DNA from: Anaerolineae bacterium
Lineage (GTDB): Bacteria; Chloroflexota; Anaerolineae; Aggregatilineales; Aggregatilineaceae
DNA length: 64,000 nt
Assembly (NCBI GenBank): GCA_018432315.1
Contig: JAHDLB010000017.1
Coordinates: 1 to 64,000, forward strand
Direction of reading: 5' to 3'
Shown here: in pieces, positions 5,440 through 40,287 of the stretch
How positions within the stretch are numbered: the stretch's first letter is position 1
Layout: every line of letters starts with the position of its first letter
The notes under the pieces: generated by a model
Seen by the model: the letters and a program-made list of their open reading frames with translations, nothing else
Databases searched by the model: none
What the model was told of the DNA's origin: nothing
Made by a program: the position numbers and the translations under genes

Positions 5440-7308
5440 ATGCCAGCAATAAGTTTCGGCGGGGGGCAGTACCTAAATATAGAAAACGCCGGAGATGGTC
5501 TTCACCCAAGAAGCAATTTCACTATAGAAGCATTGGTCACCCCGCTTGAGGCAGGTGAGAACCCATCTATTTTCTCCCGACCCATTAGTAAGAAATGGGA
5601 AGAACCATATGTATCTTATCGACTCGGTTTCTCTGCTACAGAATTAATCCCTGAGTTTGAGCTCCTGTTTGAGGGCGAATCTACTCCCCTAGTCCTGAGA
5701 AGTTCCAAACCCGTACCTCTGCAACGTCCGACACACCTAGCAGGAACCTACGACGGCTTGAAAGTACGGCTGTTCGTTGATGGAGAACTAGTCAAAGAAA
5801 TCAAAAAACTGGGGAAAACGGTACAAAGTCTAGAACCACCTACGGTAGGTTCTCGATCAAGTTCTGATCCAGGCGGATATTTCGTCGGTCTAGCTCACGA
5901 GATTCGTGCATGGAATGTTGCACGCACCCCCAAAGAAATCGACTTCTGGAAGTTCCGAATACTTCCACTTCCTGCCCCACCGGAATGCCAAGGGCTATGG
6001 CAGACAGAAGTCGGCATAGGTCGCGAACAAGCTTTTCACTTGGCAGCCCAAGGATTTTCTGCTCAAGAACGAGCATGGGCATCATTCATCACGCGATACA
6101 CCACAGAATACAATCGCCTCGCGCCTGCAATGTTAAACTCAGAAGCAAGAACTCGTTTCGCTAGCGCGATTTCATCTTGCGTGTTGGTCAAGGCAAGAGA
6201 CGGATACCTAGCAATCTATCATTCCAGCACGCCCCCATACATACAAGCTGATATTCCCGGCACAGAGGAATCGCCAACCGATGGTTTCTTTGTTTTCGAT
6301 ACAACCGAGACCACTCTTTCGCAGATCTTGCAGGATGGTACAGGAAACGGCATCAAAGTAGCGTATCCCACACCTGGAAGCCAAACGGGCGATCCCTGGT
6401 CTGAGCCGGAGGATATCCCAAATCCATCTGGTGCAATGATAGCTTCTGATTTTTGCGGTTCAATGGCCACTATACCACGCATTGCCATCACCCCAGAAGT
6501 TCTTACCGAACATGACATAGTGACTGGTGTTAAGTCAAGCCGACTTCGCATCCTTTCACCATTGGCGAGCCACAACGATGACAGTGTTTCTCGTCTCTTT
6601 GATTGGCTGTTCATCGATCTCTGGTTTGGAGATATTAGTTGGGATATAGCCAAAGCGACATTGAGCGAAACCTTGGCAACTGCAGATTTGGTTAATCTCA
6701 ATCAAGCTGCACAACTACCACTCCCGCGACAACAAACCCTCGCCATTCCACCAACTGACCCTCTGACTGCTGTCGAGGCTACCATCGATGAATTTGAACA
6801 ATTGCTGGAAAGACCAGATGTTGATGAAGTACGAGATATTCAGCCCTTTTTGGCAGACCCTAAACATTGGTTTTTACTTAGTCCCGGTTGCAGGAATGTC
6901 TGGCAGGAGAAGCGCCTAGGTAACAAATACAAAGTGGACTATATCGTAGAAGAAGCTCAAGGCACATATGTTGCGATTGAGATTGAGTCACCAAAGAAGA
7001 AGGCGTACAAGACTGGAAAGGTAAAAGATCCATACTCCGACCTTACGCACGCTGAACAGCAAGTTCGAGATTACTGTAACTACATTGATTGGAATCGCGA
7101 CACAGTAGAAAGAGAAGAAGGGCTTGCCGAAATCTTCAAACCACGCGGTGTAGTAGTTATCGGAAGAAGAAGGGATTTGTCAGATGATGGTGCGAGAAAG
7201 CTCAAGGAACGAAACGCCGACTCCGCCCGGTATTCGATTATGGTTTATGACGACTTAATCGACCAAGCACGAAGCATGATTCGTCGCCTGAGGGCTATTA
7301 CCAGTTGA
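5440..7308 (+). CDS. LamG-like/Shedu-like (DUF4263) nuclease fusion, 622 aa
   Basis: Probable anti-phage effector. Residues about 1-170 read as a concanavalin A/LamG-like jellyroll (GGGQYLNIENAG start, FTIEALVTPLEAGEN, HLAGTYDGLKVRLFVDGELV, HEIRAWNVARTPKEI). About 170-450 has no recognised domain. The C-terminal 150 residues resemble the Shedu nuclease (DUF4263): VDYIVEEAQGTYVAIEIESP gives a PD-(D/E)xK-like arrangement with Asp500, Glu514, Glu516 and Lys519/520, ending in GVVVIGRR and a helical tail. Start at 5440 has a GAGG site eight bases upstream. The gene is markedly AT-richer than its neighbours and is the only cargo between the repressor and att site B, indicating recent transfer. The N-terminal LamG domain would be the sensor if it follows the usual Shedu design; that is inference. 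Confidence 0.75.
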   Translation: MPAISFGGGQYLNIENAGDGLHPRSNFTIEALVTPLEAGENPSIFSRPISKKWEEPYVSYRLGFSATELIPEFELLFEGESTPLVLRSSKPVPLQRPTHLAGTYDGLKVRLFVDGELVKEIKKLGKTVQSLEPPTVGSRSSSDPGGYFVGLAHEIRAWNVARTPKEIDFWKFRILPLPAPPECQGLWQTEVGIGREQAFHLAAQGFSAQERAWASFITRYTTEYNRLAPAMLNSEARTRFASAISSCVLVKARDGYLAIYHSSTPPYIQADIPGTEESPTDGFFVFDTTETTLSQILQDGTGNGIKVAYPTPGSQTGDPWSEPEDIPNPSGAMIASDFCGSMATIPRIAITPEVLTEHDIVTGVKSSRLRILSPLASHNDDSVSRLFDWLFIDLWFGDISWDIAKATLSETLATADLVNLNQAAQLPLPRQQTLAIPPTDPLTAVEATIDEFEQLLERPDVDEVRDIQPFLADPKHWFLLSPGCRNVWQEKRLGNKYKVDYIVEEAQGTYVAIEIESPKKKAYKTGKVKDPYSDLTHAEQQVRDYCNYIDWNRDTVEREEGLAEIFKPRGVVVIGRRRDLSDDGARKLKERNADSARYSIMVYDDLIDQARSMIRRLRAITS

Positions 7309-8777: not shown

Positions 8778-9143
8778 ATGGACAATCCAACTGCACAGAA
8801 TATCCTGATCATCATCAACGACGGACCCTACGGCAATGAGCGTGCTTACAACGCTTTGCGCCTGGGCATGAATCTGGCGAAACGGGCCGAGGCCATCGTA
8901 CGCGTGTTTCTGGTAGGGGATGGCGTGGCCTGCGCCAAACGCAACCAGACCACGCCCCAGGGGTACTACAACGTCGAGCGGATGCTCAAGCCCATCCTTA
9001 AGCGCGGCGAGGTCGCAGTTTGAGGTAGCTGCTGTGAGGCTCGCGGGTTCGAGTCAGAAGCATTAATCGAAGGTGTTGTGATCGGGTCGATGGACCTTCA
9101 GGGGGAGTGGACCCTGGCCGCCGACAAAGTGCTGGTTTTCTAA
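8778..9143 (+). CDS. DsrE-family sulfur-transfer protein, candidate selenoprotein (in-frame TGA at 9021)
   Basis: Family: DsrE/YchN-like proteins that relay persulfide sulfur on conserved cysteines in the cytoplasm. Residues 1-81 match the family (IIINDGPYGNERAYNALRLG, VRVFLVGDGVACAKRNQTTP, YYNVERMLKPILKRGEVAV). A TGA then stands at codon 82, where relatives have the first Cys of a CGxC motif. The same frame continues for 39 more codons to TAA at 9141 and completes the family end (GSCCEARG, EGVVIGSMDLQGEWTLAADKVLVF split here). A SECIS-like hairpin follows the TGA. I read this as 121 residues with Sec82. A nonsense mutation or sequencing error is the alternative. Second gene of the ArsR-rhodanese operon. 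Confidence 0.75.
9030..9062 (+). promoter_or_regulatory. Candidate bacterial SECIS element in the dsrE-like gene
   Basis: GGCTCG (9038-9043) pairs with CGAGTC (9050-9055) round a 6-nt loop CGGGTT; TGCT (9030-9033) with AGCA (9059-9062) extends it across a small internal loop. The loop starts 21 nt after the TGA and has G in its second position, both within the accepted bacterial SECIS pattern. The pairing is seen by eye; no folding energy was computed. Confidence 0.55.
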
Positions 9144-30930: not shown

Positions 30931-31383
30931 ATGCGCCTCGTTGTTAACCGGTTAGCGGTTGTTTTGGTTCTTCTGGCAAGTGGACTGCTCATGGCGGCGT
31001 GCGGCAGTTCGGGCGCTTCCGATATGGACACAACAAGTGCTGCCCTGCTGCCGGACTGGGCGCGCGATGCCTCACCTCGCGTGCGAGAAGCCTATGAGTA
31101 TGCTGTCGCTAACCCGGAAGAACTGGCGAAATATCCCTGCTACTGTGGCTGTGACAACATGGGCCATACCAGCAACCTGAGTTGTTACGTTCAGGACATC
31201 GCACCGGATGGCACCATCACTTTTGATAGCCATGCGAACGGCTGCGGCATCTGTGTAGATATCACGCAGGACGTCATGCGGCTGAAAGGCGAAGGTCAAT
31301 CCTCGCCTCAGGTGCGCGCCTATATCGACGCACAGTACAGCCCCTTCGGTCCCGGCACAGATACCCCTTTCCCAACGGAGTAG
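30931..31383 (+). CDS. PCYCGC-motif lipoprotein, 150 aa
   Basis: Lipoprotein signal with lipobox LLMAACGS. The mature protein has the defining PCYCGCDNMGHTSNLSCYV stretch and a second pair in ANGCGICVDI, six conserved cysteines and a His that can form a metal site. PCYCGC proteins occur in Firmicutes and Chloroflexota; their function is not settled, and copper or heme delivery has been suggested. Start at 30931 is supported by GGAG seven bases upstream. First gene of a five-gene run that continues with CuA-type proteins, so delivery of copper to those is a reasonable guess. Confidence 0.75.
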   Translation: MRLVVNRLAVVLVLLASGLLMAACGSSGASDMDTTSAALLPDWARDASPRVREAYEYAVANPEELAKYPCYCGCDNMGHTSNLSCYVQDIAPDGTITFDSHANGCGICVDITQDVMRLKGEGQSSPQVRAYIDAQYSPFGPGTDTPFPTE

Positions 31384-31387
31384 AATC

Positions 31388-31882
31388 GTGCAGCAACTGT
31401 TAGAAAATCGCCCGCGTCTGATCGGACTGCCGGTCCTCGCGCTGATGCTGGTGGTATGGCTGATCCCCCCGCCGGGAGCCACTCACGCCACCACGCACGA
31501 AATTTCGCTGGACGCCACCCAATACGAATATGCACCGGGCCGCGTGCACGTCAACCAGGGCGACCGGGTCGTGATCACCCTCACCGCCGCAGATGTGGTG
31601 CATGGCTTCTATCTGGACGGGTACGGCCTGGAACGGCGTGTTGAACCAGGGGTATCGCAGCAGATTACCTTCACCGCCGACAAAGCCGGGAAATTCCGCT
31701 ATCGCTGTTCCGTGAGCTGTGGACCGCTGCATCCATTCATGATTGGCGAACTGGTAGTCGAGTCCAACACTCCCTACTGGCGCGCGACTGGACTAGTGTT
31801 AGTCGCTGTAGGTGGCATGTTGGCGTATCTGTGGTTAACTGGCAAAAACAAATCGTATCAGGAGGTTATCAGTGGCAAATAG
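31388..31882 (+). CDS. Membrane-anchored CuA-type cupredoxin, 164 aa
   Basis: Begins at GTG 31388. N-terminal helix (LIGLPVLALMLVVWLIPPP), a cupredoxin domain, and a C-terminal helix (GLVLVAVGGMLAYLWLTG). The CuA ligands are complete: His in ADVVHGFYLDGYG, then CSVSCGPLHPFM, the C-x3-C-x3-H-x2-M pattern of cytochrome oxidase subunit II and N2O reductase. No oxidase subunit I or nosZ is encoded nearby, so it is a stand-alone electron carrier. Overlaps the next gene by 11 bp. Confidence 0.85.
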   Translation: MQQLLENRPRLIGLPVLALMLVVWLIPPPGATHATTHEISLDATQYEYAPGRVHVNQGDRVVITLTAADVVHGFYLDGYGLERRVEPGVSQQITFTADKAGKFRYRCSVSCGPLHPFMIGELVVESNTPYWRATGLVLVAVGGMLAYLWLTGKNKSYQEVISGK

Positions 31883-32396
31883 AATCAAGAAGTCTTCGCG
31901 ACGAAGCAGGAAGCAATCCCGCAATAACTTGACATGGATCATCAGCGGAGCTGTGGGTCTTGCCGTACTCGTGGTTGCGGCATTGGTCCTGCGTTCGGGC
32001 AATGACAATGGAACCGGACAGAAGGAATTCGACTCAGATTTCGAGCCGGAAGTGACCGGTGCGCCACGCGTTGAAGTCGTGCAGGATGAGGTCGTCGATT
32101 ATGGTGATGTCAAGTTGGGCACCACTGTAACGACGACGTACAACGTGCGCAACGTGGGCGACGAACCGCTCGCCATCTTAGGAGAGCCGCAAGTCGAACT
32201 TATGGAGGGCTGTTGACCGCCTCGCGCTGTCGTCAGTTCGACGACCATTGAACCCGGCCACGAGGCCACTATGTCGCTGTCGTTTAACATGCACGGGAAT
32301 ATGGGTGGACCACACGAATTTCGGGTGCACCTGCGCACCAATGACCCGGAAGAGCCGGTCAAATATCTGACCATTCTTTCGAATTGGGTAGAGTAA
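31872..32396 (+). CDS. DUF1573-like membrane protein, candidate selenoprotein (in-frame TGA at 32214)
   Basis: Starts at GTG 31872 with GGAGG upstream. A basic N-terminus and one helix (LTWIISGAVGLAVLVVAALVL) anchor an outside DUF1573/Ig-like domain: VVDYGDVKLGTTVTTTYNVRN, then VGDEPLAILGEPQVELMEGC. TGA follows at codon 115. The frame stays open for 60 codons and completes the family (TTIEPGHEATMSLSF, then GPHEFRVHLRTNDPEEPV) to TAA at 32394. The TGA takes the place of the second Cys in an EGCCPP-type motif, and a perfect 6-bp hairpin follows. I read 174 residues with Sec115. The downstream gene starts directly after the TAA. Confidence 0.72.
32229..32245 (+). promoter_or_regulatory. Candidate bacterial SECIS element in the DUF1573 gene
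   Basis: GTCGTC (32229-32234) pairs perfectly with GACGAC (32240-32245) round loop AGTTC. The loop begins 19 nt after the TGA and has G at position two, closely matching the geometry of the hairpin in the dsrE-like gene. Seen by eye, not folded computationally. Confidence 0.55.
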
Positions 32397-33779
32397 ATGC
32401 TCACTGAAGGACGGATCGATCTGTTGGAGCGTATACCACTGCTCAAGCGAATGCTGAAGGCGCGTGCGTTCCAACCGGCGATGATGCTACTGACGCTGTT
32501 CGTGTTCACGCTCGCGATCCTGACCGGGATTGCAGGTACCCCTGCCGGAAGCCGCAACTTCGGCATCATCTTCGTGTGGATTGTCTGGTGGGCACTGCTG
32601 ATCGTGGTGTTGGTGCCGTTTTTCGGGCGGCTGTGGTGTACCATCTGCCCCATTCCGGCTCCGGGCGAATGGCTTCAGCGCCGCGCGATTATCGAGCGCC
32701 TACCGGGCAAACTCCGCACGCGCGGGCTACGTTGGCCGCGCCGCCTGAAAAACATGTGGCTGCAGAACTTTGGCTTTTTGGGCGTGGCAGTTTTCAGCAC
32801 CATCATCCTCACCCGCCCTAACGTCAGCGCGTGGCTGCTGCTGAGTTTTCTGCTGGTGGGCGTGGCCTTGAGTGCGTTCTACAAGAACCGCGTATTCTGC
32901 CGTTACGTGTGCCCGGTTGGCGGCTTCATCGGGTTGTACTCGCTGCTGTCGCCGATTGAACTGCGCGTTGCTGATCCCAACGTGTGCGCGGATCACAAAA
33001 CCAAAGACTGCGTCACCGGCAATGAACACGGTTACGGATGTCCCTGGATGGTTTTTCCCGGCGACCTGACGCGCAATGTCTACTGCGGCATGTGTTTTGA
33101 GTGTTTGAAAACCTGCCCTAAAAACAACATTGTGCTGAATCTGCGTCCGTTTGGCAGCGATCTGATGGTCGCCAAAGAACGCCGCCTGGATGAAGCCTAC
33201 AAAGCGTTCATTATGCTCGGCTGCGCCCTGCTTTACTCGGTGGTATTGCTTGGTCCCTGGGGCTGGCTGAAAAACTGGGCCAGCATGGACACGCTGCCCC
33301 ATTGGGCGTTGTATGCGTCGAGTTTTGTGATCTTCAATCTGGTGCTGCTGCCGGGCTTGTTCGCGCTTGTAGTGTGGTTGATCCGGCGCATCACGGGAAA
33401 TCAACGCCCGTTCCACCAGATGTTCGTGGATTTCGCCTACACGCTGATCCCGTTGGGACTCGCCGCTTGGATCGCGTTCAGTTTTGGTTTTGTGCTGATC
33501 AATGGCAGTTACGCGCTGGTAGTGCTGTCCGATCCATTCGGCTGGGGCTGGAATCTCTTCGGCACATCCGGTGTCTCGTGGACACCGCTTGGCACGAGCC
33601 TGATCCCGTTCCTGCAAGTGGGAGTCTTGACTGCCGGACTGCTCTTTGCGCTCAACACCGCCTACAAGGTTGCGCGACAGCACAACGCCCACCATCGTCC
33701 GGCGTTTTTGGCGATGCTGCCGGTAGCTGGCTTCGCAGTGCTGGTGACGCTCGGCTTTTTGAGACTTTACTTGGGATAG
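32397..33779 (+). CDS. NosR/NapH-like polyferredoxin membrane protein, 460 aa
   Basis: Membrane electron carrier with several helices and cysteine motifs of the 4Fe-4S NapH/NosR/RdxA family: GRLWCTICPIPAPGEW about residue 80, FCRYVCPVGGFIGLYS about 165, and a ferredoxin-like set YCGMCFECLKTCPKNN about 230, with additional Cys in DHKTKDCVTGNEHGYGCPW. The last third is a further helical block (MFVDFAYTLIPLGLAAWIAFSF). Such proteins pass electrons from quinol to copper or molybdenum reductases or to maturation enzymes. Located between the DUF1573 protein and a cupredoxin-cytochrome c, so an electron chain to CuA and heme is likely. Confidence 0.8.
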   Translation: MLTEGRIDLLERIPLLKRMLKARAFQPAMMLLTLFVFTLAILTGIAGTPAGSRNFGIIFVWIVWWALLIVVLVPFFGRLWCTICPIPAPGEWLQRRAIIERLPGKLRTRGLRWPRRLKNMWLQNFGFLGVAVFSTIILTRPNVSAWLLLSFLLVGVALSAFYKNRVFCRYVCPVGGFIGLYSLLSPIELRVADPNVCADHKTKDCVTGNEHGYGCPWMVFPGDLTRNVYCGMCFECLKTCPKNNIVLNLRPFGSDLMVAKERRLDEAYKAFIMLGCALLYSVVLLGPWGWLKNWASMDTLPHWALYASSFVIFNLVLLPGLFALVVWLIRRITGNQRPFHQMFVDFAYTLIPLGLAAWIAFSFGFVLINGSYALVVLSDPFGWGWNLFGTSGVSWTPLGTSLIPFLQVGVLTAGLLFALNTAYKVARQHNAHHRPAFLAMLPVAGFAVLVTLGFLRLYLG

Positions 33780-33780
33780 T

Positions 33781-34815
33781 ATGCGAATCAACACGTCACG
33801 CACAGAACTGGTCGCCCTGGTCTCCGTTGGACTGATTGTGCTTGGGCTACCTGCGGCGGCTTTGGGCTATCAGTACTGGCTGCGTCCGGCAACCGCGCCC
33901 ACGCACGTGATCGATATCGATCTACGTGTGCCACAAGATGGCGGGTTCGCTCCTGAAGCGATCACGGTCACAATGGGCGAACCCGTCACGCTGCGTTTCG
34001 CTTCGCTGGATGTGACCCATGGCATTGCCATTGGACCCGGACTTGGCGTGGACCTCGGTCATGTTGATCCTGGTCAGGTGAAAGAGATTACGCTCACATT
34101 CGATCATCCCGGCACATACACCTACTACTGCAACGCCTGGTGCAGCCCGGATCACTGGCGAATGCGTGGCACACTCCAGGTCATCGACCCAGACAATCCG
34201 GGGTTCGTGCCCCCGGCCCAGTCCGATCCCATGATCCAGGCGCTGATCGTGGAAGGCGTAGATATTGATGCTAAACACGAGGAAGGGCACGGGCATGACG
34301 ACGATCCGGCGCTGGAAATCACACGCCCGCTCTCGGCCCAGCACGGCGCAGATCTGCTCGACAGCGTGACACTTCCTGATGAAGTAATCGATCCCCTCTG
34401 GCGGCGTTCCCATGCACCAACACAGGCGCTTGAGCTATTGGGCACGGCCAATCCTCAGATGACACAGGCTGATTTGATCGATGTAGTCGCGTATCTGTGG
34501 ACGGCGGATACTGCACCAGAAACAATCCTCAATGCTCAGGTCTTGTACAACAAAAACTGCGCAGCCTGTCACGGGCAGTACGGCGGCGGAGACGGTCCAG
34601 CAGCGGATACAACCGCCGAAAACCCGGTGATCTTCGCTGATCCCGCATTTATGTTTGAAATGCGCAGCGATGTACTGTATGCCAAAATTCGGCGTGGGGG
34701 GATGGGCACCGACATGCCCAACTTCGGCACCTTATTCACGCAGGAAGAAACCTGGGCGCTGGTCGAATACCTCTGGACGCTGCCCGTGCAATTAGCTAAT
34801 CAAGGCGAAGAGTGA
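33781..34815 (+). CDS. CuA cupredoxin fused to cytochrome c, 344 aa
   Basis: N-terminal signal/anchor helix (ELVALVSVGLIVLGLPAAALGY), then a cupredoxin with complete CuA ligands (DVTHGIAIG and CNAWCSPDHWRM, C-x3-C-x3-H-x2-M), a His-rich linker (DAKHEEGHGHDDD), an ADLLDSV helical part, and a class I cytochrome c with heme motif NCAACHGQYGGGDG about residue 260 and axial Met in GMGTDMPNFG. This is the layout of cytochrome oxidase subunit II of the caa3 type, but without subunit I nearby and with a single N-terminal helix. Likely carries electrons outside the membrane to an unknown acceptor. Confidence 0.85.
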   Translation: MRINTSRTELVALVSVGLIVLGLPAAALGYQYWLRPATAPTHVIDIDLRVPQDGGFAPEAITVTMGEPVTLRFASLDVTHGIAIGPGLGVDLGHVDPGQVKEITLTFDHPGTYTYYCNAWCSPDHWRMRGTLQVIDPDNPGFVPPAQSDPMIQALIVEGVDIDAKHEEGHGHDDDPALEITRPLSAQHGADLLDSVTLPDEVIDPLWRRSHAPTQALELLGTANPQMTQADLIDVVAYLWTADTAPETILNAQVLYNKNCAACHGQYGGGDGPAADTTAENPVIFADPAFMFEMRSDVLYAKIRRGGMGTDMPNFGTLFTQEETWALVEYLWTLPVQLANQGEE

Positions 34816-37278: not shown

Positions 37279-38132
37279 CTATTGCCGTTGCGGCGTGGCG
37301 ACGACAGGTCGTCCAGCAGGTCGAGCGCTGCGTGGTTTGCTGGCCGTTCCGTTTCCTCCGGCTCAGCGAACCAGAGATCCGCTTGCATTTCCCGGTAGAC
37401 TGCCAATCTCCAATCTGCCTGCGTCATGGCCGCCAGCGTTTCCTTACGACGGGCATTGACTTTGCGCAGCGCATCCTGGAGGGCATTCGCGTGAAACTGG
37501 GACCACTCAGGGAGCTGCTCAGGTTCAGCAGTCAACGCCTGCCAGTCCACCAACGCGGATTGATAGGCGTACTCAGCCGCATGACGCTGCTCAATCGTTT
37601 CGAGCATCTGACCCTTGAGCACGTAGGCGGTGCTTAATACCACCATCGGCGGCACAATCGCCTCAAGCCAGGCGAAAACGCTCTGCTCAAAACCCAGTAG
37701 AGCCACCTGGATGTTCCCCGCCAACGCCACCGAAGTGCACATGCCCATGCTGAGATACAAGAGCCGCCTGGACGTGGTTGAGGTGCCAAGCGTGGCTAAG
37801 GCCAACGAAAATACCACCTGTCCGATTTCGGCAGACAGAACCGTCGCCAGCCCGACCGCCACTTGCGCCAGGTTGTTGGGTACGGCTTGCCCAAAAGTCT
37901 GCGAGCCGATGACATAGAGCCGGATGGCCGATGGCGTGAAGGCTGCCAGCAACAGAACCATGCACAGCAGTGAAATCAGTCGGGTAACGGACAGCGGATA
38001 GCGGGAGATCGCGGTGTGGGTGAACTGCTCGCGCGTCGGTTTGGAGCCAAGCGCACGAATCACGGCGTTACGCGCACTTTTGCGCGCACCCTGTCGTTGT
38101 TCTTGTGTAAGAGGTCGCAGGTTCTCGATCAT
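37236..38132 (-). CDS. Multi-helix membrane protein of the att-locus unit, 298 aa
   Basis: Start at 38132 (MIENLRPLTQEQRQ) with GGAGG upstream; the reading from GTG 38150 overlaps the HTH stop. A basic cytoplasmic N-terminus of 50 residues is followed by four or five helices (LISLLCMVLLLAAFTPSAIRL, VAVGLATVLSAEIGQVVFSLA split here, VFAWLEAIVPPMVVLSTAYVL) and a long soluble C-terminal helix-rich part. No family recognised. A truncated copy with near-identical N-terminus lies at 121-279. A zinc-finger coding frame continues past its stop in another frame. Possibly a membrane-bound spreading or exclusion factor, but that is only a guess. Confidence 0.6.
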   Translation of the reverse strand: MIENLRPLTQEQRQGARKSARNAVIRALGSKPTREQFTHTAISRYPLSVTRLISLLCMVLLLAAFTPSAIRLYVIGSQTFGQAVPNNLAQVAVGLATVLSAEIGQVVFSLALATLGTSTTSRRLLYLSMGMCTSVALAGNIQVALLGFEQSVFAWLEAIVPPMVVLSTAYVLKGQMLETIEQRHAAEYAYQSALVDWQALTAEPEQLPEWSQFHANALQDALRKVNARRKETLAAMTQADWRLAVYREMQADLWFAEPEETERPANHAALDLLDDLSSPRRNGNSAVPKVIAAASGAV

Positions 38133-40236
38133 CGCCGTGTCCTCCGTCACTTGCGCTTGCCGCGCAGTATCTGAGAAACGCGCTGCTGCGAGATGCCAAA
38201 AGCTTCGGCAAGTGACACCACCGTCTCACCCTGGATATAACGAGCACGTATCCGGCGATTGCGTTCATGTTTGCTGGGTGTATGATCTGTGAGGGGAAAA
38301 TCCGGGGTTTTCTGCCCGATGTACATGAGTAACATACCGTAATTGATCGCGTCCACAAGATGTTGGAATCCCCTGACGCATAGGCCCCTATGGGGCATAA
38401 ATCGCTCGTGGTCTTGAGACCCGGGCGATTGTGTTTCTGGTCACCTGAATCACCACTTACTTCTCCTCCACCACCGCCTGACGAGCCGCCATCCCCACCA
38501 CCGTCTGAGCCTGGCGTGCCGCCACTTCCACCGTCATCTCCATCGGGGTTGCCTCCCTCCGTGAAATGAAGCGCCATGCGCAGGTCCAGGAACCGTTCCG
38601 CCCACGGCTTGAGCGTGAAGTGGACAATCCGCTGTTCGTCCAGGTCGTAGATGATCTCCTCGAACATCATGCGCGCGAGCTGCTGCCGGTCCTCGTCGGA
38701 GCTTTCATCCCACAGTGACGAGATCATGTTGAGCACTTCCATGCACATGCGCAGCTCAATCGCCGCCTTCCGCACATCCGTCGTCCGCGACTCCCAGTGC
38801 GCGATCTCCCGCTCGCAGTCGGTCTTCCGCTTCACGTACTCTTCGCGCGAGAGGTCGCCGTCTTCGAACAGGTAGCGCGCCGCCTCGATCTTGCGCCGCA
38901 GCTTGGCGATGGCCGCCTGCTTCTGGCGTTCGATGTCGTCCTCTACCGGGCTGGGTCCGCCCTGGTCCACCTGGATCGCCATCTCAACGAGCAACGGGAG
39001 CTTGTCTTCCCTGATGTTCAGCACGCTGATCAGCTTCTTGAAGTCGTCCTCGATGACGTGCGTGGACACGGAACGGGTTCCGCAGCCGCACTTAACACCC
39101 TCGGCATGCCGGTAACGCAGCTTGCCGTACTGATCCACACCGCTCAGCCGGGAGCGGAGCTTGGGGTTGTCGTGTTCGCGGGCGTTGCGCTCGCACTGCG
39201 CGCACCACAGCAATCGGGTGAGTGGATATGGGTGAGCCTGTTTGACCGAACCGAAGGGGCGGGTCGTGACGCTGCGGCTCTCCTGGATCGTCGCCACCCG
39301 CTCAATGAGTTCGAATGGAAACACGCAGCGTCCCGTATCGTAGAGGATGCCCGTGGGGTTGTCCAGCATGCTCGCGTTCATGTCCTTGGCACGCCCCTCC
39401 GGGCTCAGGCCGGCATACTGCCGCCAGTTGGATACCACGCGGCGGATGTCATCCCGATTGACGGTGCGGGGCCGGTGCTTACGATCGCGGAAGACCCAGC
39501 CCTCGTCGGTGATCTGGTACGCGATACGCTCGATGCCCTGGTTGTTCCCGGCATATAGCTCCAGGATGCGCCGGGCGCAGTCATAGTACCCACGCCACAG
39601 CGCACCCGGTTCCGGTGGATCCTGCTCCACATCACCTGGCACGTACTGACCGTCAGGCAGAAGCCAGGCGCCGTAGGGTGATGGCTCGAGATATCCCCGT
39701 TCATTTCGGATCGTTCCGAAGGGAGGCATCCCAACCGTCTTGCCTTGCCCTTTGCGATAGACGATGCTGTCCTTGGCACGCTGTGCGATGTCGGCGGCAT
39801 AAGCCTCATCCTGCATCGCCATGAAGTTGACCATCATGCGACCCATCGGGGTCGAGGTGTCGATCTCCCGCCCAGGTGCGGCCAGCACCAGGTGTACGCC
39901 ATGTTCATCCAGCAGGTCCAGCAAGTGACCCACCCGCCACGTCTTGCGGTGCAGGCGCGCCAGGTCGTTGGCGACCAGGGCCACCACATCTGGATCGCCC
40001 AGTCGTGTCTTCAGAGCCAGCCAGCCCGGACGGTTCTTCACTTCACGTCCCGACTTGTGTCCCTCGGCATCCTCGTACCATTCGGGTATCCAGGCATTCC
40101 GGTCACAGACCGTCTGGATGTTGGCACGCTGGCGTTCCGGGCTGTTCATGTCGCTCTCGTCGCGCGTGTACGATTGGCGGATGTAACACAGGGCGACGGT
40201 GCGTGGTACAGTGAACTGGCGTTTGGGGTTGGGCAT
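38068..40236 (-). CDS. Large serine recombinase of the second element, about 722 aa as read
   Basis: Start at 40236 (MPNPKRQFTV) with AGGAGGAG upstream. Resolvase domain with catalytic Ser about residue 22 (LCYIRQSYTRDE) and DLARLHRKTWRVGHLL; recombinase domain (RILELYAGNNQGIERIAYQIT); zinc ribbon (LLWCAQCERN, VKCGCGTRSV); coiled helices; then a Gly/Ser/Asp-rich linker of about 40 residues (GSGGTPGSDGGGDGGSS). After the linker the frame crosses att site C and runs on for about 110 residues in a frame that overlaps the HTH gene antiparallel in phase, so that tail is probably accidental. About half-identical by eye to the recombinase at 291-2306. Upstream lies the 105-residue partner gene. Confidence 0.85.
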   Translation of the reverse strand: MPNPKRQFTVPRTVALCYIRQSYTRDESDMNSPERQRANIQTVCDRNAWIPEWYEDAEGHKSGREVKNRPGWLALKTRLGDPDVVALVANDLARLHRKTWRVGHLLDLLDEHGVHLVLAAPGREIDTSTPMGRMMVNFMAMQDEAYAADIAQRAKDSIVYRKGQGKTVGMPPFGTIRNERGYLEPSPYGAWLLPDGQYVPGDVEQDPPEPGALWRGYYDCARRILELYAGNNQGIERIAYQITDEGWVFRDRKHRPRTVNRDDIRRVVSNWRQYAGLSPEGRAKDMNASMLDNPTGILYDTGRCVFPFELIERVATIQESRSVTTRPFGSVKQAHPYPLTRLLWCAQCERNAREHDNPKLRSRLSGVDQYGKLRYRHAEGVKCGCGTRSVSTHVIEDDFKKLISVLNIREDKLPLLVEMAIQVDQGGPSPVEDDIERQKQAAIAKLRRKIEAARYLFEDGDLSREEYVKRKTDCEREIAHWESRTTDVRKAAIELRMCMEVLNMISSLWDESSDEDRQQLARMMFEEIIYDLDEQRIVHFTLKPWAERFLDLRMALHFTEGGNPDGDDGGSGGTPGSDGGGDGGSSGGGGGEVSGDSGDQKHNRPGLKTTSDLCPIGAYASGDSNILWTRSITVCYSCTSGRKPRIFPSQIIHPANMNAIAGYVLVISRVRRWCHLPKLLASRSSAFLRYCAASASDGGHGDDREPATSYTRTTTGCAQKCA
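38147..38398 (-). CDS. Small HTH protein at att site C, 83 aa
   Basis: Its ATG lies in the att core (ATGCCCCATAGGGG on this strand). Sequence starts MPHRGLCVRGFQHLVDA and ends with a resolvase-type HTH (RIRARYIQGETVVSLAEAFGISQQRVSQIL). Homologous to the gene at 7483 and to the recombinase tail at 291. Here the upstream recombinase reads through the same DNA in another frame, so the HTH protein must be made separately, if at all. Overlaps the start region of the membrane-protein gene downstream. Confidence 0.6.
   Translation of the reverse strand: MPHRGLCVRGFQHLVDAINYGMLLMYIGQKTPDFPLTDHTPSKHERNRRIRARYIQGETVVSLAEAFGISQQRVSQILRGKRK
38362..38408. repeat. att-like site C
   Basis: GTTGGAAT at 38362-38369 and core CCCCTATGGGGC at 38385-38396 with the same spacing as sites A and B. 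The right arm is different (ATCGCTCG in place of ATTCC), as expected if this half came from another partner during recombination. Confidence 0.65.
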
Positions 40237-40287
40237 GGCTCCTCCTGGTATGCTGGTTACGTGGTTCCTGGTCACAGATGGCGCGCG

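Follow-up and report, generated by a model that had tools for sequence, protein, structure and literature searches.

A gene on the forward strand at 31872-32396 of the DNA analysed here (a 64,000-nucleotide stretch from an Anaerolineae bacterium, hereafter the window) is, with high probability, a bacterial selenoprotein gene in which the UGA at 32214-32216 is read as selenocysteine (Sec), a reading that draws on comparison with relatives. The first-pass annotation of the window had taken its product for a DUF1573-like selenoprotein in the membrane, with Cys and Sec as a pair, and this core claim is supported by the alternation of TGA and Cys codons in homologues and by the covariation of the hairpin that follows the TGA. 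Because its motif is Cys-Sec (C-U), its match to the described DUF1573 selenoprotein OS_HP2 stays below the cut-off and it carries a Met/His motif, we assign the gene to a new subfamily, set apart by its Sec position, within an already known selenoprotein domain, separate from OS_HP2 and with repeated Sec/Cys switches. The C-U form occurs in the class of this bacterium and, beyond the class, elsewhere in the phylum, and it would tie the use of selenium to a copper electron-transfer cluster.

The gene, its TGA codon and the predicted protein

The frame contains a single in-frame TGA (32214-32216; motif EGC-U-PP), which follows GGC TGT (Gly-Cys) in a GTG-started frame, and the sequence and its translation agree with the annotation on this point. 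Past the TGA the frame stays open to a TAA at 32394-32396 and the ATG of the next gene follows immediately at 32397, as had been described, over 59 sense codons and not the 60 that were counted. In a standard-code listing of open reading frames the gene stops at 114 residues. The features of the gene, all on the forward strand, are as follows.

31860..31865, +, Shine-Dalgarno-like AGGAGG read in the sequence, 6 nt upstream of the GTG start
31872..32396, +, DUF1573 selenoprotein gene (probable), GTG to TAA, 174 residues with Sec as residue 115
31929..32000, +, predicted helix (predicted secondary structure), residues 20-43, probable membrane anchor following a Lys/Arg-rich start
32082..32363, +, DUF1573 domain (Pfam), residues 71-164, PapD-like/ASH Ig fold by model and fold match
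32211..32216, +, Cys114 (TGT) and Sec115 (TGA) pair
32229..32245, +, bacterial SECIS-type hairpin, stem 32229-32234 with 32240-32245, loop AGTTC
32289..32315, +, Met140-His141-x2-Met144-x3-His148 motif, conserved in the C-U subfamily

The DUF1573 features noted downstream of the TGA are borne out by Pfam, where the PF07610 match, with TGA read as Sec, covers residues 71-164 across residue 115 (E=1.6e-9) and passes the gathering cut-off (38.1 bits against 26.1). No second DUF1573 match at E<=0.001 was found in the same genome. The structure model (mean pLDDT 88.3) combines helix 20-43 with a beta domain of the PapD-like/ASH type; its top match in a second look for related folds was 2qsv (Z 12.9, 2.4 Å over 105 residues), and a sequence search of solved structures returned no match. 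Judged from the sequence, the helix probably serves as a membrane anchor with the domain outside the membrane. Cys114 is invariant and forms a vicinal pair with Sec115 between modelled strands 107-110 and 119-121, while Met140 and Met144 lie between strands 131-138 and 146-156, the latter beginning with His148. The Ig-like topology of the model suggests that the Cys114-Sec115 and Met140/Met144 loops share one pole. Of 52 C-U proteins, 51 have all three of Met140, Met144 and His148, a combination missing from both of the two canonical CGC proteins.

Comparative evidence for selenocysteine

The order-level search covered 101 genomes (the source genome and 100 relatives) and returned matches in 26. 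At the codon level, 13 intact TGA copies from 12 genomes and 14 TGC or TGT copies from 13 genomes share the same column, preceded by Gly-Cys in every copy examined by codon, so that the alternation of Cys and TGA for which a check had been proposed is present. An additional TGA copy (L026, genome G053) is broken. The phylum-level sample of 400 genomes had a match in 24, the source genome included, and added 25 aligned TGA copies, spread over 20 genomes, with Gly before the Cys in 24 of these and Ser in L109. Other phylum-level copies at the codon level include L102 (G369), with a TGA at different spacing, L108, with a TGA in a frameshifted gene, and the canonical CGC proteins L101 and L103, without TGA; a Cys form of the C-U subfamily was absent from the phylum-sample copies examined in this way. 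Codon-level counts exclude L027 and L028 (fragment, weak hit), the second copy in G030, G043:C186, G229:C226, two more phylum-sample fragments, and L128-L130 and L132 from a search with the OS_HP2 model NF041425. The broken L026, the C-U copy L102 and L108, the second copy in G212, were kept out of alignments A2 and A4. L108 is a near-copy of the DUF1573 gene that sits near the opposite end of a single contig from L085, a duplication that may be an assembly overlap. A scan of genome contigs gave one canonical DUF1573 match, limited to a Phocaeicola record, and a plasmid search with the gene gave none.

The hairpin GTCGTC-AGTTC-GACGAC (32229-32245) has the geometry given by the first-pass annotation: a perfect 6-bp stem, an 18-nt gap from the TGA with the loop beginning at nt 19, and G at loop position two. 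It did not hold up as evidence standing alone. Under loose scanning criteria, 16 TGA frames of the window, the present gene counted, have a hairpin of this sort; Rfam at its gathering threshold reported no family anywhere in the window, and the hairpin was rejected as stand-alone proof. Applied to the selD genes of these genomes, the same loop rule left 6 of 8 without a 6-bp stem; with 16 window frames passing and most of these selD genes failing, the rule is neither specific nor complete. It is the conservation and covariation of the aligned hairpin in relatives that exceed chance, and not the hairpin by itself.

Over the 48 nt that begin with the TGA, the alignment of the 38 intact TGA copies is free of gaps, with the stem in columns 16-21 and 27-32. 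Pairing is kept in 224 of 228 cells (98.2%), and five of the six stem pairs are altered on both sides (49 such cells), the outcome of the covariance test that the first reading of the sequence had called for. Pairing, changed cells and covariation score lie above all 500 shuffles, which leave shared ancestry in place, and above every slid register; sliding the partner register by 1-3 columns lowers pairing to 6-70%. Two measures are weaker, as the number of pairs changed on both sides was reached in 5 of 500 shuffles and that of further pair types in 256 of 500. Stems range from GTCGTC/GACGAC to ACCATC/GATGGT, GTCGTA/TACGAC and GTTGTG/CACAAC. A stem with six Watson-Crick pairs is present in 31 of 38 TGA copies against 0 of 14 Cys copies, among which L006 and L007 could form six pairs with G-U and L013 retains five. 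Where two of the 13 order-level TGA copies have the same amino acid, its codon is also the same in 393 of 422 comparisons within the hairpin against 227 of 476 elsewhere; for the 14 Cys copies the figures are 64 of 152 within the hairpin region and 152 of 461 elsewhere. Codon identity is thus raised inside the hairpin in TGA copies, and the constraint accompanies the TGA. Codon resampling, with frequencies that include the hairpin itself, gave 0.13-0.17 per gene in 21 of 22 genes and 0 for L093, which lacks the sixth pair; given this choice of frequencies, the test carries no weight in the argument.

The source genome encodes tRNA-Sec with anticodon TCA along with selB (334.7 bits), selA (544.7 bits) and selD (363.8 bits), the last with one TGA of its own. 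An intact TGA copy is present in 12 order-level genomes. Searches of these gave tRNA-Sec in 11, SelB over the cut-off in 10 (not in G005 or G017), some SelA match in 11 (8 over the cut-off; no match in G044) and selD in all 12, each with its own TGA; these gaps fall in multi-contig drafts. The 21 phylum-level TGA genomes carry tRNA-Sec in 18 cases, including 13 of 13 of high quality, and the TGA genomes that lack it at either level (G017, G221, G229 and G358) are all multi-contig drafts. G053, home of the broken copy, gave no match for tRNA-Sec, and neither SelA nor SelB passed the cut-off there. Relatives that carry the TGA without sel genes had been named as an observation that would speak against the selenoprotein, and G017 is in part such a case, with neither tRNA-Sec nor SelB found, though a SelA fragment and a TGA-bearing selD remain. 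We read this gap as missing sequence because the genome is a 420-contig draft, retains the fragment and selD, and has a congener (G015) with tRNA-Sec, SelA, SelB and SelD. Since tRNA-Sec also occurs in 6 of 11 Cys-only genomes, codon and machinery are only loosely linked, and sel genes as a clean divider of TGA from Cys genomes were set aside as only partly successful (tRNA-Sec in 11/12 versus 6/11). In G277 about 4 kb separate the tRNA-Sec gene (G277:C15:13168-13262) from L115, the DUF1573 selenoprotein gene.

Two other accounts of the TGA have to be weighed against Sec. Were it a nonsense mutation or a sequencing error, the protein would end at Cys114, and the broken copy in G053 shows that such damage occurs; this is nevertheless very improbable, as the TGA is common to 38 aligned copies, of which the 37 besides the window gene share 26-70% protein identity with the window protein, the hairpin covaries and the protein is conserved beyond the TGA. 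Additionally, draft errors cannot explain the TGA copies of G105, G212 and G436, because these genomes are single contigs. That the TGA is decoded as some other residue, by Trp insertion or a near-cognate suppressor, has the smallest probability of all: the open frame alone would suit any reading, but all 14 copies examined that lack the TGA have Cys in this column, and the host has tRNA-Sec and SelA, SelB and SelD. Of 16 window frames checked, 7 end normally in TGA, which agrees with termination at Cys114 and counts against a general reassignment of the codon. Selenocysteine remains by far the most probable reading.

A tree of 54 domains requires seven changes of the Cys label, at least five of them forced by well-supported branches; the tree is midpoint-rooted, with bootstrap incompletely settled and several long branches. 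The first branches beside the two canonical proteins are Sec, which suggests that Sec is old in the C-U subfamily and was replaced by Cys several times. Sec and Cys copies coexist in G044 and in G063, and these genomes make any advantage of Sec over Cys directly testable.

Relation to described selenoproteins

The first-pass annotation knew of no described DUF1573 selenoprotein, a statement contradicted by OS_HP2, which is in print with the motif UGC or UxC (PMC2398784, PMC9312934 and PMC13188914, as far as the available parts of these papers go). The motif is UxC in the available text of PMC2398784 and UGC in the table of PMC9312934, and the portion at hand of a 2026 review (PMC13188914) has the DUF1573 selenoprotein only as UGC in its table of 119 families and subfamilies, counting different Sec positions as distinct subfamilies. 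A C-U form is not listed in that portion of the review, DUF1573 goes without mention in the accessible part of PMC12013277, and no C-U DUF1573 selenoprotein is described in the excerpts of selenoprotein literature on Chloroflexota, Chloroflexi or Anaerolineae among the matches listed.

OS_HP2 (PF07610; NF041425) resembles the window protein in having a DUF1573 domain with one Sec, and the profile match is weak but clear; at 39.1 bits it lies far below the curated 100-bit cut-off. At E<=0.001 the OS_HP2 profile matches 36 of the 54 rows in alignment A4, two of them canonical. The motifs differ, since OS_HP2 has Sec at the first position of CGC (UGC) or in UxC and the window protein has GC-U-P together with the Met/His motif. 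Alignment A4 pairs Cys114 with the first Cys of CGC and Sec with the Gly, and pairwise tblastn pairs Sec with the Thr after CGC; these positions are compared by way of canonical CGC proteins and not an OS_HP2 reference, and neither alignment places Sec on the first Cys. No protein in the 400 phylum-level genomes exceeded the NF041425 cut-off, and the two best-hit proteins examined (G284 and G292) are canonical CGC. The canonical CGCT proteins L101 and L103 share the domain, and Cys114 corresponds to their first Cys by its spacing to Pro-Gly, but they have C-G-C-T where the window protein has C-U-P-P and lack both the Met/Met/His motif and the TGA.

Adjacent Cys-Sec pairs are also found in HgcA, SaoL, SaoC, CopZ-like form 2 and MbdU, according to the part of the review table at hand (PMC13188914). 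Several of these names are tied to mercury, copper or metal binding, but the proteins have other domains and the likeness is one of motif, not of membership. OS_HP4/CYCXC (PF13798), likewise a described selenoprotein family in the available parts of PMC9312934 and PMC13188914, is a different protein and the family of a neighbouring gene. The window's PCYCGC gene is a Cys form of it that scores 67.7 bits against the 90-bit OS_HP4 cut-off, whereas the G043 copy has a TGA at the UxxC site and a hairpin. That neighbour (L055, minus strand) carries its TGA at 306-308, with UNIC in place of CGIC and a 7-bp hairpin, and two adjacent genes therefore look like selenoprotein genes there.

A possible copper connection and other genes of the window

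The DUF1573 gene belongs to a module of five genes (30931-34815). The other four encode a PCYCGC lipoprotein, two CuA proteins and an FeS membrane protein, as follows.

30931..31383, +, PCYCGC lipoprotein (PF13798), Cys form, with a weak OS_HP4/CYCXC model match below the cut-off
31388..31882, +, cupredoxin/CoxII-like protein with the CuA ligand motif CxxxCxxxHxxM
32397..33779, +, NapH-like 4Fe-4S membrane protein (PF12801)
33781..34815, +, CuA-type cupredoxin domain fused to cytochrome c

The complete order PCYCGC, CuA, DUF1573, FeS and CuA-cytochrome c is found in 15 of 28 order-level regions, and a sixteenth (L050) has the cluster order cut by a contig end. Five of 17 phylum-level regions hold all five genes, with the DUF1573 gene last, and the PCYCGC gene is present in 20 of 28 order-level and 12 of 17 phylum-level regions; several regions in these counts run out at a contig edge. 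Some DUF1573 copies sit outside the CuA cluster. Every CuA match (21 of 21) and every CuA-cytochrome match (22 of 22) retains CxxxCxxxHxxM; the CuA-cytochrome matches have the heme motif in 20 of 22 and include at least one that looks like a cross-match to the CuA protein. Genes for a heavy-metal P-type ATPase and, on the opposite strand, for a DUF305 protein lie upstream in the window. Pfam scanning of the genes neighbouring the module identified no oxidase subunit I. A link to nitrous oxide reductase, hinted at by the CuA and NapH-like neighbours, was rejected for the source genome, which has no NosZ match; NosZ is present in 17 of the 101 genomes. A large serine-recombinase-like gene with a Resolvase domain lies close to the copper genes (38068-40275, minus strand).

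In the mechanism we propose, SelA, SelB, SelD and tRNA-Sec of the host would decode the UGA as Sec under the direction of the hairpin, giving a membrane-anchored, probably extracytoplasmic Ig-fold protein. The Cys114-Sec115 pair and the Met140/Met144/His148 loop would act as a soft-metal ligand or a thiol/selenol reductant, so that copper is kept at, or loaded into, the CuA sites of the cluster's two CuA proteins; the 4Fe-4S protein may donate the electrons. Such a role would resemble that of copper chaperones of the PCuAC and Sco kind. The copper reading leans on the conserved CuA motifs, the nearby P-type ATPase and DUF305 genes and the near-universal Met/His motif of the C-U proteins. It also leans on C-U motif selenoproteins of the metal-related families HgcA, SaoL and MbdU (PMC13188914, available part). 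On this sequence-based footing, a soft-metal or thiol/selenol function serving the CuA proteins is a tentative proposal with rather less than an even chance. The fuller version, in which the unlisted C-U subfamily is an extracytoplasmic copper-handling selenoprotein whose Cys-Sec and Met/Met/His deliver or reduce copper for a two-CuA electron-transfer module, is somewhat unlikely.

The main rival to the copper reading is a purely redox role, in which the protein is still a selenoprotein and the Cys-Sec pair works, without binding copper, as a thiol-disulfide or selenylsulfide oxidoreductase or a peroxide scavenger for the exported proteins of the cluster. This has not far short of an even chance. 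A catalytic thiol would agree with the repeated Sec/Cys switching, conserved Cys residues occur in the PCYCGC and CuA neighbours, and uncharacterised selenoproteins are mostly presumed to be redox proteins (PMC13188914, available part). Conversely, the modelled fold is PapD-like/ASH and not thioredoxin, an adjacent C-U differs from the usual CxxU or UxxC, and the co-conserved Met/Met/His is left unexplained, a motif that the copper reading does take up.

Elsewhere in the window, a DsrE-like gene at 8778-9143 (+; PF02635, E=5.4e-20) has a TGA at 9021-9023 in a UGSC site and the hairpin GGCTCG/CGAGTC; a DsrE-like UxxC selenoprotein is a described family (PMC9312934, in the part available). It is very likely the other selenoprotein candidate of the first-pass annotation, which had placed two TGA genes in one island, a placement not borne out so far, as the two genes lie about 23 kb apart. 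The gene at 5440-7308 (+) encodes a Shedu SduA C-terminal domain after a Laminin_G_3/ConA-like domain and is possibly a defence gene.
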